From contig CACZSN010000026.1 of assembly GCA_902783835.1 (NCBI GenBank), positions 1 through 64,000 on the forward strand: a DNA stretch of 64,000 bases. Reading direction: 5' to 3'. Positions 9,746-49,670 of the stretch are shown one piece after another; the stretch's first letter is position 1, and the number at the start of each line of letters is the position of its first letter. The DNA is from an uncultured bacterium. GTDB taxonomy: Bacteria; Cyanobacteriota; Vampirovibrionia; Gastranaerophilales; Gastranaerophilaceae. The notes below the pieces were generated by a model. That model was given only the letters and a program-made list of their open reading frames with translations, searched no databases and was not told the DNA's origin. Made by a program: the position numbers and the translations under genes.

Positions 9746-11032
9746 TTATTTTCCGCAACAATTTTTGTATTTTTTACCGCTGCCACAAGGACAGGGTTCA
9801 TTTCTGCCGACTTTTGGAATAACCGGTTTGGAAGCATTTTCTTCATCTTCAACTTCTTTTGTCATTATTTGTGCAAAAACTTTTGAAGAATATAAAATTG
9901 AGGCCGGAGCAATCACCGGTTTTCCGAGGTTGTGAGGCTTAAATCTCCTCAAAATTTGTTCAAAAGATAAATTAAACCCTTCAATTTCATTAACTCTATC
10001 CGCAAAATTAGGATATTTTTTAGCGACATATGTCAATATTATGCTTGGTATTTTGTCGTTGTTTAAGAAATTTTTCAAACATTGGTCATAATTCGGAACG
10101 GTTTTGTAATCATCATTTTCAAATATTTTACAAAAAGTACCGAAAAACGGAATCGCAAACAAACCTGAATTTTCTATAAAAAGTATTCCGACATCGTACG
10201 TGCTGCCCTGAGCTGAAAAACCGGCAATAGATTTTTTGGCAAGATTTTCGTTCGTAAAATGGAAATCATTTGTCGGAAAATATGTGTATTTTGAAGGTTT
10301 TTCCAAACCGTTTTTAACAATATCTTTAATTTCCTCATTACCTGATTCACAATAATCATTAAAAGCATTAATAACAGTATCTGCAAATTTGTTAGTTGTA
10401 ATAACTTCGTCCGACTCGAAACACTCTTTGAATTTTTGTTCAAACCGGCCGATTTGAGCCTTAATTTCCGCAAGTTTTTCATCATTATCGTAAAAAACAA
10501 CATCGGGATTTTCAATAATTTTACTTATTGCATAACGTTGAGCACCGCCTGTTTTATCCGCACCGGTAATAGCTCTGACATCAAAAACATAATACTGTCC
10601 GTCAATTTTGCAAAGACAGCAATACAAAAATGAACCCTGATAAGCACCTCTAAATGCAGTCATTGTGTTCATCGCATTTGCCTGATAAGTTTTTTCATTG
10701 ATAATACTGTAAAGTTCAAAACCGTCTTTAAAGACTTTTTTAACTTCAAATACACCGTTAAATGCATTTTTCAGAGCATCAACTACCACTAATTCTTTTT
10801 GAATAAGATTAAGATTTTTGGACAAATAATAATCGAAAACAGATTTTCCCGAAACTCTTCGAGAATAAAGGTATGTCAACGTTCTTGCTCGTTTTTCGTC
10901 CTGTGATAAACTTTTCACGTTAAATTGTGTAAAATCAAGAAAATCTTTACTCAATCCTGCATCATGAGTTAAAAATCCCATAATTTTATCAATTATTTGA
11001 GGAATGAGAACATTTGTATCGATAATTTGCAT
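9746..11032 (-). CDS. SEC-C motif protein of unknown function
   Basis: 428 residues, soluble. Only the C-terminus is recognisable: [18 protein letters not shown], a SEC-C zinc motif as found at the end of SecA and in many uncharacterised proteins, usually a protein- or nucleic acid-binding knuckle. The N-terminal 380 residues match no family I know; the opening IIDTNVLIP resembles a PIN-domain start but the rest does not support that. It is the last gene of the minus operon starting at 14553; its start overlaps the pgeF stop (11032). It is convergent with the radical SAM gene, only 2 bases apart. Confidence 0.7.
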
Positions 11033-44520: not shown

Positions 44521-45387
44521 TTATTTTACAGTTCTAAGATATCTGTAATAGTCATTTTTCGGGTATTTATCCGCCTTAGCGATTAAATCTTCACGAGTCA
44601 AAAACTTCATACGATAAGCAACTTCCTCGAGGCATGCGATTTTGATACCTTGATTTTCTTCGATTGCTTGAACGTATTGGCTTGCTTGGAACATCGAGTG
44701 GTGAGTTCCCGTATCGAGCCATGCAAAGCCTCTGCCCAATTTTTCAACAGAAAGCGTACCTTTTTCGAGATAAATTCTGTTCAAATCGGTAATTTCGAGC
44801 TCGCCTCTTGCTGACGGTTTAAGGTTTTTTGCATACTCAACGACTTTATTATCGTAGAAATACAAACCGGTTACAGCGTAATCAGATTTCGGGTTTTCAG
44901 GTTTTTCTTCAAGAGAAATAGCCTTGCCGCCTTCACCAAATTCAACAACACCAAATCTTTCGGGGTCTTTAACTTTATAACCGAAAACAGTTGCACCGCC
45001 TTCTTCATAAGTTCTTTTAACAACTCTTTGGAGCATTGAAGAAAATCCGCCGTAAAAAATATTGTCGCCTAAAATCAAAGCAACACAATCATCACCGATA
45101 AATTCTTCGCCCAAAATAAATGCTTGTGCAAGTCCGTCAGGAGAAGGTTGTTCTTTATAGCTCAATTTAATACCGAAATCAGAACCATCGCCCAAAAGTT
45201 TTTTGAAGTTTGGCAAATCTTGAGGGGTTGAAATAATCAAAATTTCATTAATTCCAGCAAGCAATAATGTTGAAAGCGGATAATAAATCATCGGTTTGTC
45301 ATAAATAGGCAAGAGTTGTTTTGAGACAGTCATTGTAGTCGGGTAAAGTCTTGTTCCTGCACCGCCTGCTAAAATTATACCTTTCAT
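44521..45387 (-). CDS. rmlA: Glucose-1-phosphate thymidylyltransferase
   Basis: 288 residues; full-length Rml[12 protein letters not shown] (about 8-18) is the nucleotide-binding signature; LGDNIFYG and [20 protein letters not shown] are typical. Makes dTDP-glucose, first step of dTDP-L-rhamnose. Last gene of rmlB-C-A; rmlD is not in the window. Confidence 0.96.
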
Positions 45388-45403: not shown

Positions 45404-45955
45404 TTATAACAAATCCGTCACGTCTTTTAAGAACGGTTGTTTTTTATCTTTTTCGCTTAATTGAGGTTCAAAATCGATACCCCAATTTACGTTGATATCA
45501 GGGTCATTCCAACGAATACCTCTGTCGTTTTCGGGAGAGTATTCGTTTGAACATTTATACAAAAATTCTGCTTCATCGCTCAATACCACAAAGCCGTGAG
45601 CAAAGCCTTCAGGAAGATAGAGCATACATTTATTTTCTTCTGAAAGTTCTCTGCTTACCCATTTTCCGAAAGTTTTTGAGCCTTTTCTGATATCGACGGC
45701 AACATCGAGAATTTTACCTTTTACGCATCTGACCAATTTTGCTTGTGCTTTCGGATGCATTTGGTAGTGCAATCCTCTCAAAACACCTTTTACGGATTTT
45801 GAGTGATTGTCTTGGTTAAATTCATCTTTAATGCCGTTTGCAACAAAGACTGATTTTTTGTATGTTTCTGAGAAAAATCCTCTGTCATCTCCAAAAATCT
45901 GAGGAATAACGTAAATTACGTCTTCAATTTCTGTTTTTTGAAATTCAAATGCCAT
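45404..45955 (-). CDS. rmlC: dTDP-4-dehydrorhamnose 3,5-epimerase
   Basis: 183 residues of the RmlC cupin. [18 protein letters not shown] holds the catalytic His, and [15 protein letters not shown] and ND-P-D-NVNWGID are standard. Acts between RmlB and RmlD. Confidence 0.95.
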
Positions 45956-45967
45956 ATTTTTATCCTC

Positions 45968-46954
45968 TTATTTTGCAGCTGCAGCTTGTTTATCAAGAAT
46001 TGCCTGAATCCAATCTTGGTGGTTAAGATACCAATCGATTGTAATTTTGATACCTTCTTCGAACGTCAAAGACGGCTTCCAACCGAGTTCTGAGGTAATC
46101 TTATCGTTGCTGATAGCATATCTCCTGTCGTGACCGAGTCTGTCTTGAACATATTTAATAGAACTTTCATCTTTGCCCATAGCATCGAGGATAAGATGAG
46201 TAATTTCCATATTAGTTTTTTCGTTGTGACCGCCGATATTGTAAACTTCACCGACTTTACCTTTGTGAAGGACAACGTCGATTGCTTCGCAGTGATCATA
46301 AACGTATAACCAGTCACGAACATTCATTCCGTCTCCGTATACAGGAACTTTTTCACCTTTCAAAAGAAGTGAAATGAAGAACGGAATCAATTTTTCAGGA
46401 TATTGATAAGGGCCATAGTTGTTTGAACAACGAGTGTTCAATGTCGGCATTCCGTATGTTTCGTGGTATGCACGAACGAGCATATCAGCGCTTGCCTTTG
46501 ATGCAGAATAAGGTGAATTTGGAGAAATCGGAGTTGTTTCATAGAAATAACCCGTTTTGCCCAATGAACCATAAACTTCATCAGTTGAAACTTGTAAATA
46601 TCTGTCGATACCGGCATTTTTAGCATTTTGCAAAAGGTTCAATGTACCTTTAACGTTTGTATCGATAAAAATTTCAGGGCCTGTAATTGAACGGTCAACG
46701 TGACTTTCTGCCGCAAAGTTAACGATAGTATCAACTTCAGGCATCAAATCTGCAACCAAATTTTTATCGCAAATATCACCGTGAACGAACGTATAATTCG
46801 GGTTATCCTTTACGTCGTCAAGGTTTTCGATATTACCAGCATAAGTTAATGCGTCAAGGTTGATTACTTTGTAATCGGGATATTTATTCAAAATATGTCT
46901 TACAAAACAATTCCCAATGAAACCAGCACCGCCTGTAACTAATATTCTTTTCAT
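45968..46954 (-). CDS. rmlB: dTDP-glucose 4,6-dehydratase
   Basis: 328 residues, extended short-chain dehydrogenase. GGAGFIGNCFVRH NAD loop, the DEVYG active-site pair (Asp-Glu), and YSASKASADMLVRAYHETYG (YxxxK). AAGGAAA precedes the ATG. First gene of the rml operon. Confidence 0.96.
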   Translation of the reverse strand: MKRILVTGGAGFIGNCFVRHILNKYPDYKVINLDALTYAGNIENLDDVKDNPNYTFVHGDICDKNLVADLMPEVDTIVNFAAESHVDRSITGPEIFIDTNVKGTLNLLQNAKNAGIDRYLQVSTDEVYGSLGKTGYFYETTPISPNSPYSASKASADMLVRAYHETYGMPTLNTRCSNNYGPYQYPEKLIPFFISLLLKGEKVPVYGDGMNVRDWLYVYDHCEAIDVVLHKGKVGEVYNIGGHNEKTNMEITHLILDAMGKDESSIKYVQDRLGHDRRYAISNDKITSELGWKPSLTFEEGIKITIDWYLNHQDWIQAILDKQAAAAK

Positions 46955-47050: not shown

Positions 47051-48583
47051 TTAATAACGGTAATATTTTTGAAAATCCATTGTATCTATCTCTTTTTCAG
47101 ATAACGAATATCCTGTTTTTTCTTTCAAAAAATCTATCAATTTTTTGTTACATTCATCAATATTTTCATTTTCTTTGCAAAAAACGACCTGTTTATAATC
47201 CTCAAATTTTGCATTTCTATCATACAAATAAATAAAGTAAATCAAAGAATATTCAGGTACAAATTCTTTAAAATCGTTACAATTTAAAAATACCTTTTGA
47301 TTTTTTTCATACAAATCGAAAACTCTTTCCAAAATAAAAATCCTCTTTTGGAAAAGTTTATTATGATTTACAACAGGTAAATCCATCCAATTCAAATTAT
47401 ACAAACATAACATCGGGATAAAACAAAACAACACCGTAAAGGCTTTTATACTGTTATATTTAACGGAAGAAATCAACCATCCGCACATTGATAAGATGAG
47501 ATTCAACAAATAAATTTTAGTCATCAAAATAATTCCCCAATGCCCTACCATTAGCATTGAACCGTAAATGCTGACAAATATAATCGCCAGCGGAAACAGC
47601 AAAACGGAAATTAAAACAGAACCTTCAAAAACAAACAACCTTTTTCTTTCATCATTTTTCGGAGAAAAAATCAAGGCTATAATTATAAGTCCTGCCAAAA
47701 CAAAAAATAGTAACCGATTAGCATAAATAAAATTTCTGTAATATTCCAAAAGATAATTGTTCAAAATTGCTGTAATATTTGCCCGTTCTATGATTGAAAA
47801 ATAATTTTTATAAATCGGAAGGAAAAATGTTATCACACTTGAGAAAACAACAACTACGTATCCAAGCCAAAATTTTTTGTGGCTAAAATTTTTGTTAATG
47901 AAAATACAATGAAACAAATATCCCAAAAATAATGCGAAACAAATTACAAATCTTTGAAATTCAAAAGAAAGCATTACACATAAGAAAATAAAGGAAAATT
48001 CAAATAGAAATATCTTCGGCATGCTTGTGGGGGGGGGGGGTATATTAATCACTTTATCCATGGAATTTTTCACATAAAGTTTTTCGCACACGGATAAAAA
48101 TACAACTGAAAAAACAGGCATAAAAATATATGCAAAAGACCAAACATCATCCGTAATTATCCAATCTGCCGATGAAGATATCATTAAAAATATAAAAATC
48201 GGAAAGGTTAAAAACATCCATAAAATTTTAAACTTTTGATTTTGAAAATATTTTGTAAAATTGTCCGCTATTGCATATTGCAAAATATACATTAAGAGAA
48301 AAATTATCAGGTAATAATAATCCGTATACCAAACTTGCGGATGAATGTGTAACATTTCCGGTATATATCTGCCGAAAAGACAGATAAACATTGATAAAAT
48401 AATACTCGGATGGTCATTTTTCAAAAATGTTCCGAAAAAATCCGTTTCTCCCCACCAAAGACTCGACAAACTGTCCCCTTTTATGACCAAGCCGTGAAAT
48501 AAAGGTGAAAGTGTTGAGTAAATAAAAATTCCGCTCAATACAAAAAGCAACAAATTTAATAACCAATAGGAAAATTTTTTCAT
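47051..48583 (-). CDS. Polytopic membrane protein with a poly-C tract
   Basis: 510 residues with about 11-13 membrane helices and a short soluble C-terminus. A large periplasmic loop follows the first helix, as in GT-C/EpsG-like and O-antigen-type proteins, but no signature is strong enough to name it. Codons near residue 180 include twelve consecutive C on the coding strand (48029-48040), encoding IPPPPTS in the current frame. It follows rmlBCA in the direction of transcription of neither, but lies next to them on the same strand, so a surface-glycan role is plausible (inference). No clear ribosome site. Confidence 0.65.
   Translation of the reverse strand: MKKFSYWLLNLLLFVLSGIFIYSTLSPLFHGLVIKGDSLSSLWWGETDFFGTFLKNDHPSIILSMFICLFGRYIPEMLHIHPQVWYTDYYYLIIFLLMYILQYAIADNFTKYFQNQKFKILWMFLTFPIFIFLMISSSADWIITDDVWSFAYIFMPVFSVVFLSVCEKLYVKNSMDKVINIPPPPTSMPKIFLFEFSFIFLCVMLSFEFQRFVICFALFLGYLFHCIFINKNFSHKKFWLGYVVVVFSSVITFFLPIYKNYFSIIERANITAILNNYLLEYYRNFIYANRLLFFVLAGLIIIALIFSPKNDERKRLFVFEGSVLISVLLFPLAIIFVSIYGSMLMVGHWGIILMTKIYLLNLILSMCGWLISSVKYNSIKAFTVLFCFIPMLCLYNLNWMDLPVVNHNKLFQKRIFILERVFDLYEKNQKVFLNCNDFKEFVPEYSLIYFIYLYDRNAKFEDYKQVVFCKENENIDECNKKLIDFLKEKTGYSLSEKEIDTMDFQKYYRY
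48029..48040. repeat. Homopolymer run of 12 G (12 C on the coding strand)
   Basis: The only long G/C homopolymer noticed in this AT-rich window. It lies inside the membrane protein gene; gain or loss of one base would shift the frame and truncate the protein. Confidence 0.95.
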
Positions 48584-48604: not shown

Positions 48605-49285
48605 TTACTTTATCAAAAATAATAGTAAAGGTGCAAAAATCGCCGTAATAATTCCGACCAAAACCAAAGCCAACGTACTCATTACGACCTGTTTTTCCCT
48701 ACCTGTTTCAAGGCATTTTGATGTTGCGATAACGTGGCTTGCCGCACCCATTGAAAGTCCAATGGCAACATCGTTTTTGACCCTTATAAACTTCAAAATT
48801 TTATGTCCTGTCAATGCCCCGAAAATCCCTGTCAAAGCAACAAAGCAAGCCGTTAACTCAGGAACACCGTGCAAACTTTTCGAAATTTCAACCGCAATCG
48901 GTGCAGTAACTGATTTTGGCAACATAGAAAGAATTATTGCAGAATCCGTATGACACAATTTTCCTATTGCAAATGTCGTAACTAATGCAAGTCCCATCGC
49001 AACAAAAAATGCAGTATAAATAATTCTCTTATTTTTAACAAGCATATTCAAATTTCGATACAACGGAAAACCAAGCGAAATCGTTGCGGGGATTAACAAA
49101 AACGTAAGCCACGAGGCAGTTTCGTTATAAGTTTTATAGTCAATATCAAAAATTTTCAAAATCAAAATCAAGCAAATCCCAGTAACCAGCAAAGGCGGAA
49201 ACGGCTTTATCAAAGGAAAATTTTTAAATCTTTCGCAAATTTTAAACAGAACAACAGTCGAAACAATGCCGAACGGATTAATCAT
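48605..49285 (-). CDS. lrgB: LrgB/CidB-family membrane protein
   Basis: 226 residues, polytopic. PKSVTAPIAVEISKSLHG and GLSMGAASHVIATSKCLE are the family signatures. With LrgA it forms an export/holin-like system linked to overflow metabolite (pyruvate or acetate) transport and autolysis control. Overlaps lrgA by 8 bases. Confidence 0.92.
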   Translation of the reverse strand: MINPFGIVSTVVLFKICERFKNFPLIKPFPPLLVTGICLILILKIFDIDYKTYNETASWLTFLLIPATISLGFPLYRNLNMLVKNKRIIYTAFFVAMGLALVTTFAIGKLCHTDSAIILSMLPKSVTAPIAVEISKSLHGVPELTACFVALTGIFGALTGHKILKFIRVKNDVAIGLSMGAASHVIATSKCLETGREKQVVMSTLALVLVGIITAIFAPLLLFLIK

Positions 49286-49670
49286 CGTGATGACCTCTCA
49301 TTCTGTGCAATCTGACCAATTTCACCCCATATTCGACGAACAAACCCGTTCCTACAATCGTCAACGTCGTTGAGAACAAAACAACAAGACAAATTGCAAG
49401 CAGATTTTCCGTCAAAACAGACTTATAAAGCACAATTCCGACAATAAAAGGCACAAAAAGAACGGGCATATTTTTAAGCATAAAATCGACCGTGATTTTG
49501 ACCCAATCTTCCTTGATAATCCCGACAGAAAGTCCCCACGCAAAAAGAACAAGTCCCAAAATCGCAGGCGGCAACTTAATTTCGGCCAATTTCAAAATAA
49601 AAAAACTGACATAATAAATCGCAAAAAGTATCGCCATTCCTGATAAAAATTTGAAAAACTTTCCAATCAT
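49278..49670 (-). CDS. lrgA: LrgA/CidA-family membrane protein
   Basis: 130 residues with four helices and the LrgA layout (KLPPAILGLVLFAWGL-like loop, VDFMLKNMPVLFVPFIVGI). Co-transcribed with lrgB. No LytSR-type regulator is adjacent. Confidence 0.9.
   Translation of the reverse strand: MIGKFFKFLSGMAILFAIYYVSFFILKLAEIKLPPAILGLVLFAWGLSVGIIKEDWVKITVDFMLKNMPVLFVPFIVGIVLYKSVLTENLLAICLVVLFSTTLTIVGTGLFVEYGVKLVRLHRMRGHHDD

Follow-up and report, generated by a model that had tools for sequence, protein, structure and literature searches.

INTRODUCTION

Phase variation through homopolymeric tracts is known mainly from pathogens and from a few commensals. Campylobacter strains carry 5 to 81 phase-variable genes, with poly-G/C accounting for 91% of the repeats (PMC6321876). 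The simple sequence repeat phasome of Neisseria reaches up to 90 per genome (PMC5953494). Here, we describe a 12-base G/C tract in a 64,000-nucleotide stretch of DNA (referred to as the window; positions 1 to 64,000 of contig CACZSN010000026.1, assembly GCA_902783835.1) from an uncultured bacterium of the family Gastranaerophilaceae, where it lies within the gene for a 510-amino-acid membrane protein. Judged from sequence, this tract is very probably a simple-sequence contingency locus, that is, a site of phase variation (a probability of about 0.8), because runs of a similar kind in sister species visibly break the reading frame. Our literature search, which was partial in journals and did not include preprints, found no report of homopolymer phase variation in Melainabacteria, Gastranaerophilales, Gastranaerophilaceae, or Vampirovibrionia. 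The mechanism is thus already known, and it is the lineage and the scale that appear to be unreported.

RESULTS

The tract reads as G12 on the plus strand of the window and as C12 in the sense strand of its host gene, where it forms codons 182 to 185 (Pro-Pro-Pro-Pro) of an open reading frame (ORF) that is open at the present length. An earlier note on this DNA had placed the tract in a membrane protein gene adjoining rmlBCA and had taken the frame to be open; its coordinates proved exact, the three rml genes score above curated cutoffs (Table 1), and the four prolines are read within the 510-codon frame. The window has a G+C content of 35%, its longest other G run is 6 bases, its longest other C run is 5 bases, and its A and T runs are at most 8 bases long; thus, the tract is not due to a general tendency toward long runs. 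Under a first-order model, runs of at least 12 bases are expected about 0.00003 times per 64 kb for G and about 0.00013 times for C, or about 1e-4 times per window for a G12/C12 run, which places this homopolymer far beyond chance, as is characteristic of contingency loci. The whole 1.88-Mb assembly contains two G/C runs of at least 9 bases, each of them 12 bases long.

A change of one base in such a locus should alter expression of the product, and this is what we found in silico: tract lengths of 10, 11, 13, and 14 yielded products of 193, 202, 194, and 203 amino acids, respectively, in place of 510. The earlier expectation that gain or loss of one base would truncate the protein after about 180 residues agrees with these products, which retain about 180 native residues. 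A reading of the tract as a promoter spacer was rejected, as the run is inside an ORF and no −35 partner was found. In the mechanism that we propose, the G12/C12 run would gain or lose bases by slippage during replication; a length of 12 (also 9 or 15) would leave the 510-amino-acid protein readable, and other lengths would end the product at about 193 to 203 residues, before most of the membrane segments. Within a cell line, the protein would thus alternate randomly between on and off states, and this switching would change the cell surface. We infer slippage at this very tract, its reversibility, the surface effect, and the biochemical role of the protein.

To a large extent, the case for switching comes from four congeners. 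One of them (G004) has 12 G/C runs and another (G003, which appears to be the assembly named uncultured bacterium RUG841) has one, with lengths of 10 to 13 bases; the remaining two have none. On the sense strand, roughly half of the own-genus runs read as poly-C. Frame state was read in three frames for 13 evaluable own-genus tracts, including both tracts of the present genome; left out of the count were L045:7104 (a separate upstream frameshift), L046 (tract at the 3′ end), and L051 (contig end). Eight of the 13 are out of frame, namely, L041 (G13), L045:5460 (C11), L047 (C10), L048:4168 (C11), L049 (G11), L050 (G11), L052 (G12), and L053 (C11), and five are in frame (L048:622, L048:2906, L054, and both own-genome tracts). 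This proportion is near the two thirds expected under free length drift. Lengths that are not multiples of 3, whose occurrence the earlier note had raised as a question, are therefore found among congener tracts of 10 to 13 G, some of whose genes are in frame and others not.

The frame calls vary in strength. Those for L041 and L049 are demonstrated by homology, with tractless paralogs as a control. Nineteen SGNH-type members (18 of 292 to 340 amino acids and one of 185), in which G/C runs never exceed 5 bases, were all read as open frames. Aligned to L041, many of the 19 change frame exactly at its tract, and the alignments of three of them to L049 likewise change frame at the tract there. 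The gene at L050 is split where a capsule-synthesis (PGA_cap) domain begins, the call for L048:4168 is based on an in-frame neighboring paralog, and the calls for L045:5460, L047, L052, and L053 derive from the frame of the start codon and the length of the open frames. Among the congener tract genes are those for acyltransferase 3, PGA_cap, SGNH/GDSL, MaoC, and radical SAM proteins, and several have no Pfam match. Two neighboring, nonhomologous genes of one congener region (L048, 622 to 632 and 4168 to 4178) share the sequence CCCT-G11-CTATATTT, a pattern that would suit the copying of a small tract-bearing cassette.

Tracts are also present in proteins related to the window protein. We aligned six homologs, including the window protein, and a profile comparison linked this family to tract-bearing membrane proteins at L045:7104 in congener G004 (probability, 91.6) and at L233:7526 in G110, a genome of another genus (probability, 97.9). 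The latter two proteins are 38% identical to each other, and each tract-bearing relative has its tract at its own site, where the others have none. Such differing sites imply that tracts were gained repeatedly and independently, and repeated gain within one family speaks for selection of the ability to switch. We regard this remoter link as moderate evidence, because it comes from pairwise profile scores on a small alignment.

The other long run of the genome is a C12 at positions 10539 to 10550 of contig C25, which is a G12 in the sense strand of an acetolactate-synthase-like thiamine pyrophosphate (TPP) enzyme gene. This gene adjoins rfbH, the CDP-glucose 4,6-dehydratase gene (rfbG), and the glucose-1-phosphate cytidylyltransferase gene (rfbF) (C25:9304-14989, L007). 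Two 12-base tracts, both beside nucleotide-sugar genes, is not expected of neutral sequence. The TPP-enzyme gene has 97% DNA identity to a contig of RUG841 and 67% protein identity to a metagenome-assembled genome (MAG) of Candidatus Gastranaerophilales. In RUG841, the tract has an interrupted 9-base form, GGAGGGGGG (GTC GGA GGG GGG TATAAT); in the present genome, GT and C are followed by G12 and then by TATAAT, so that the tract is uninterrupted and one codon longer, with both genes in frame. Because the TATAAT flank already stands beside G6 in RUG841, this run grew in place, and an origin of the tract from a mobile cassette is unsupported. With its position next to rfbF, rfbG, and rfbH, this TPP enzyme may be comparable to YerE of the branched-sugar yersiniose pathway.

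In 10 of the 15 own-genus tracts, TATA follows the G run at a distance of no more than 6 nucleotides on its 3′ side, irrespective of gene direction; the background is about 3% after runs of G3 to G4 and about 9% after runs of G5 to G6. The loci compared were window positions 48029 to 48046, L007 positions 10535 to 10550, and L041 to L054; other genera of the family show different flanks.

We next consider the family as a whole, for which each G run of at least 9 bases was counted once in 288 genomes, the survey being confined to poly-G/C among the types of repeat. Such runs are present in 233 of the 288 genomes, with a maximum of 176 per approximately 2 Mb (G237). Outside the family, 27 genomes from other families of the order or class have 0 to 9 runs, and one has 22. 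In several genera, the runs stand near the starts of many prepilin-like genes. One such genome is G013 (115 runs; L252 to L271), where most of the tracts read lie about ten codons after the start of members of a large prepilin-like family, with lengths of mostly 11 to 14. These paralogs carry the N-terminal methylation motif FTMAEILL; within regions selected for tracts, 42 of 43 prepilin-like genes carry one, and 9 of the 40 evaluable genes are in frame.

Other genera show further arrangements. For G110 (58 runs, 47 of them read), lengths are 9 to 11, and the best upstream and downstream frames differ in about half. Its tract genes encode epimerases, glycosyltransferases, pyruvyltransferases, hexapeptide transferases, an acyltransferase, and another TPP enzyme. 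At no fewer than five sites in this genome (L234, L235, and L244), a run of G9 to G11 occupies the spacer from a TTGC motif to an extended −10 box, TGGTATAAT; these spacer tracts are candidates for transcriptional phase variation, as judged from their sequence. All 30 tracts read in G237 (L088 to L117) have the exact form CG10C with a loose motif after it. Their place is often the leader of a prepilin-like gene, and they lie on one DNA strand over approximately 180 kb although the genes run both ways. This uniformity may reflect either a motif that is fixed or a limit that base calling sets on run length. On balance, we favor the view that the family holds a larger poly-G phasome than has been described, with tens to more than a hundred G runs in many genera, comprising glycan genes, promoter spacers, and, above all, the starts of genes in large prepilin-like paralog families, such that each cell would express a random selection from dozens of pilin-like proteins. 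Loss of MutS as the cause was rejected, since MutS1 is full length both here and in the genera rich in tracts. In g21 and g36, two genera with almost no tracts, the MutS1 matches score lower (E of about 1e-136 to 1e-180), the opposite of what loss of mismatch repair predicts.

The 510-amino-acid protein has a soluble C-terminal part of approximately 100 amino acids, and the tract falls within a short basic loop between hydrophobic segments. Searches with the single sequence and with a profile gave no match in Pfam, NCBIfam, or the PDB, and a search of genome contigs with the protein found no relative. No GT-C or Wzy match was found with the six homologs, for which the best hit was an unrelated domain of unknown function (E of 0.02) and Wzy had an E of 7. 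A single-sequence AlphaFold2 model was unusable (predicted local distance difference test [pLDDT] score, 43). The gene shares its strand with lrgA, lrgB, rmlB, rmlC, and rmlA. Because it is directly upstream of rmlBCA and because the tract genes of sister species are glycan or envelope modifying, the most likely role of the protein is to build or decorate a glycan of the cell surface; it is perhaps a GT-C-type transferase.

TABLE 1 Features of the window at and around the G/C tract
Feature	Position	Strand	Basis or remark
G12 homopolymer (C12 in sense)	48029..48040	+	Sequence; run statistics; one of two G/C runs of at least 9 bases in the genome
TATATT	48041..48046	+	Adjoins the 3′ end of the G run (G strand)
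Gene for 510-amino-acid multispanning membrane protein, ATG start	47051..48583	-	ORF; hydropathy
rmlB, dTDP-glucose 4,6-dehydratase	45968..46954	-	TIGR01181 above cutoff; 97 bases downstream of the tract gene
rmlC, dTDP-4-dehydrorhamnose 3,5-epimerase	45404..45955	-	TIGR01221 above cutoff
rmlA, glucose-1-phosphate thymidylyltransferase	44521..45387	-	TIGR01207 above cutoff
lrgB-like gene	48605..49285	-	PF04172, E 2e-63; 22 bases upstream of the tract gene
lrgA-like gene	49278..49670	-	PF03788, E 2e-20; upstream of the tract gene

DISCUSSION

Several observations weigh against phase variation at the window tract. The comparison at this locus is with a single diverged ortholog, that of RUG841, which shares 57% protein identity and lacks a tract. 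Gene order at the locus is the same as far as the two RUG841 contigs reach, and the flanks have 84 to 92% DNA identity; by these identities, the tract gene is evolving faster than its neighbors, a point in favor of switching. Both tracts of the present genome are in frame, and six of the eight off calls in congeners were made from frames, domain breaks, or a neighboring paralog, without a multiparalog alignment. The full-length MutS1 of this genome would lower slippage rates. Finally, the 510-amino-acid protein has no family match, and its putative glycan role comes from its place beside rmlBCA and from the kinds of genes that bear tracts in sister species. Of the earlier claim of a phase-variable surface-glycan locus, the first part is supported by congener tracts in and out of frame, intact tractless paralogs, and tracts elsewhere in relatives, and the surface-glycan part is one that we infer from position.

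The in-frame state of both tracts could also mean ordinary coding without switching, the window tract being a low-complexity proline linker that uses CCC codons. It lies in a variable loop that joins membrane segments, where the ortholog has other residues, and the TPP-enzyme tracts of the two siblings, both in frame, differ in length by a single codon; both points speak for a linker. However, four uninterrupted CCC codons were used among the synonymous codons for proline in a genome of 35% G+C, and the second tract encodes glycines, which indicates that it is the base run that recurs and not the residue. Together with the out-of-frame lengths in congeners, this makes a mere linker unlikely.

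The flanking sequences raise a different possibility, namely, that the G run and its flank are a copied or mobile DNA motif with another role, such as protein binding, and do not slip. The excess of TATA beside own-genus tracts, the sequence shared by the two L048 genes, and the uniform, one-strand arrangement of the G237 tracts would all fit such a motif. The TPP-enzyme run, however, grew beside a flank that was already there, and tract lengths vary within the genus, so we consider a nonslipping motif quite improbable. Least credible of all is a sequencing or assembly artifact (two-color Illumina poly-G, homopolymer miscalls, or a chimeric bin): these are MAG data, long homopolymers are error prone, and some tracts are at contig ends (L051), but the tracts are internal to continuous homologous coding sequence, have both C and G on the coding strand, occur in hundreds of independent assemblies of this family and mostly not in neighboring families, and have a shorter form in the independently named RUG841.

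If phase variation operates across the family, homopolymer switching extends to a nonphotosynthetic sister lineage of cyanobacteria whose members are common residents of the gut and rumen. Surface variation toward phages, host, and competitors in these uncultured bacteria would then be testable from existing metagenome reads, and many apparent pseudogenes in Gastranaerophilales MAGs may be switched-off genes. The scale within the family is more surprising than the single locus.

Like membrane glycosyltransferases of the GT-C/PMT type and Wzy polymerases, the host protein itself is multispanning and adjoins nucleotide-sugar genes, but it gives no sequence or profile match to them. As a switch, the system is closest to that of Campylobacter, where poly-G/C runs of approximately 7 to 13 bases lie in ORFs of surface-structure genes with on and off states near the neutral expectation (PMC6321876). 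It differs in its lineage, in its full-length MutS1, in the poly-C sense of about half the own-genus tracts, and in the counts of other genera of the family, which go up to 176 runs, a figure that is not strictly the same measure as the published 81 and 90 because published cutoffs differ (shorter runs, other repeats, or genes counted). Neisseria likewise combines translational and promoter-spacer tracts in surface genes (PMC5953494), with mixed repeat types, whereas here poly-G dominates among the repeat types looked for. Finally, in the gut commensal Bifidobacterium breve, a slippage switch is reported to control sortase pili and concerns two pilus clusters (PMC9187656), whereas related genera here have dozens of tract-bearing prepilin-like genes.
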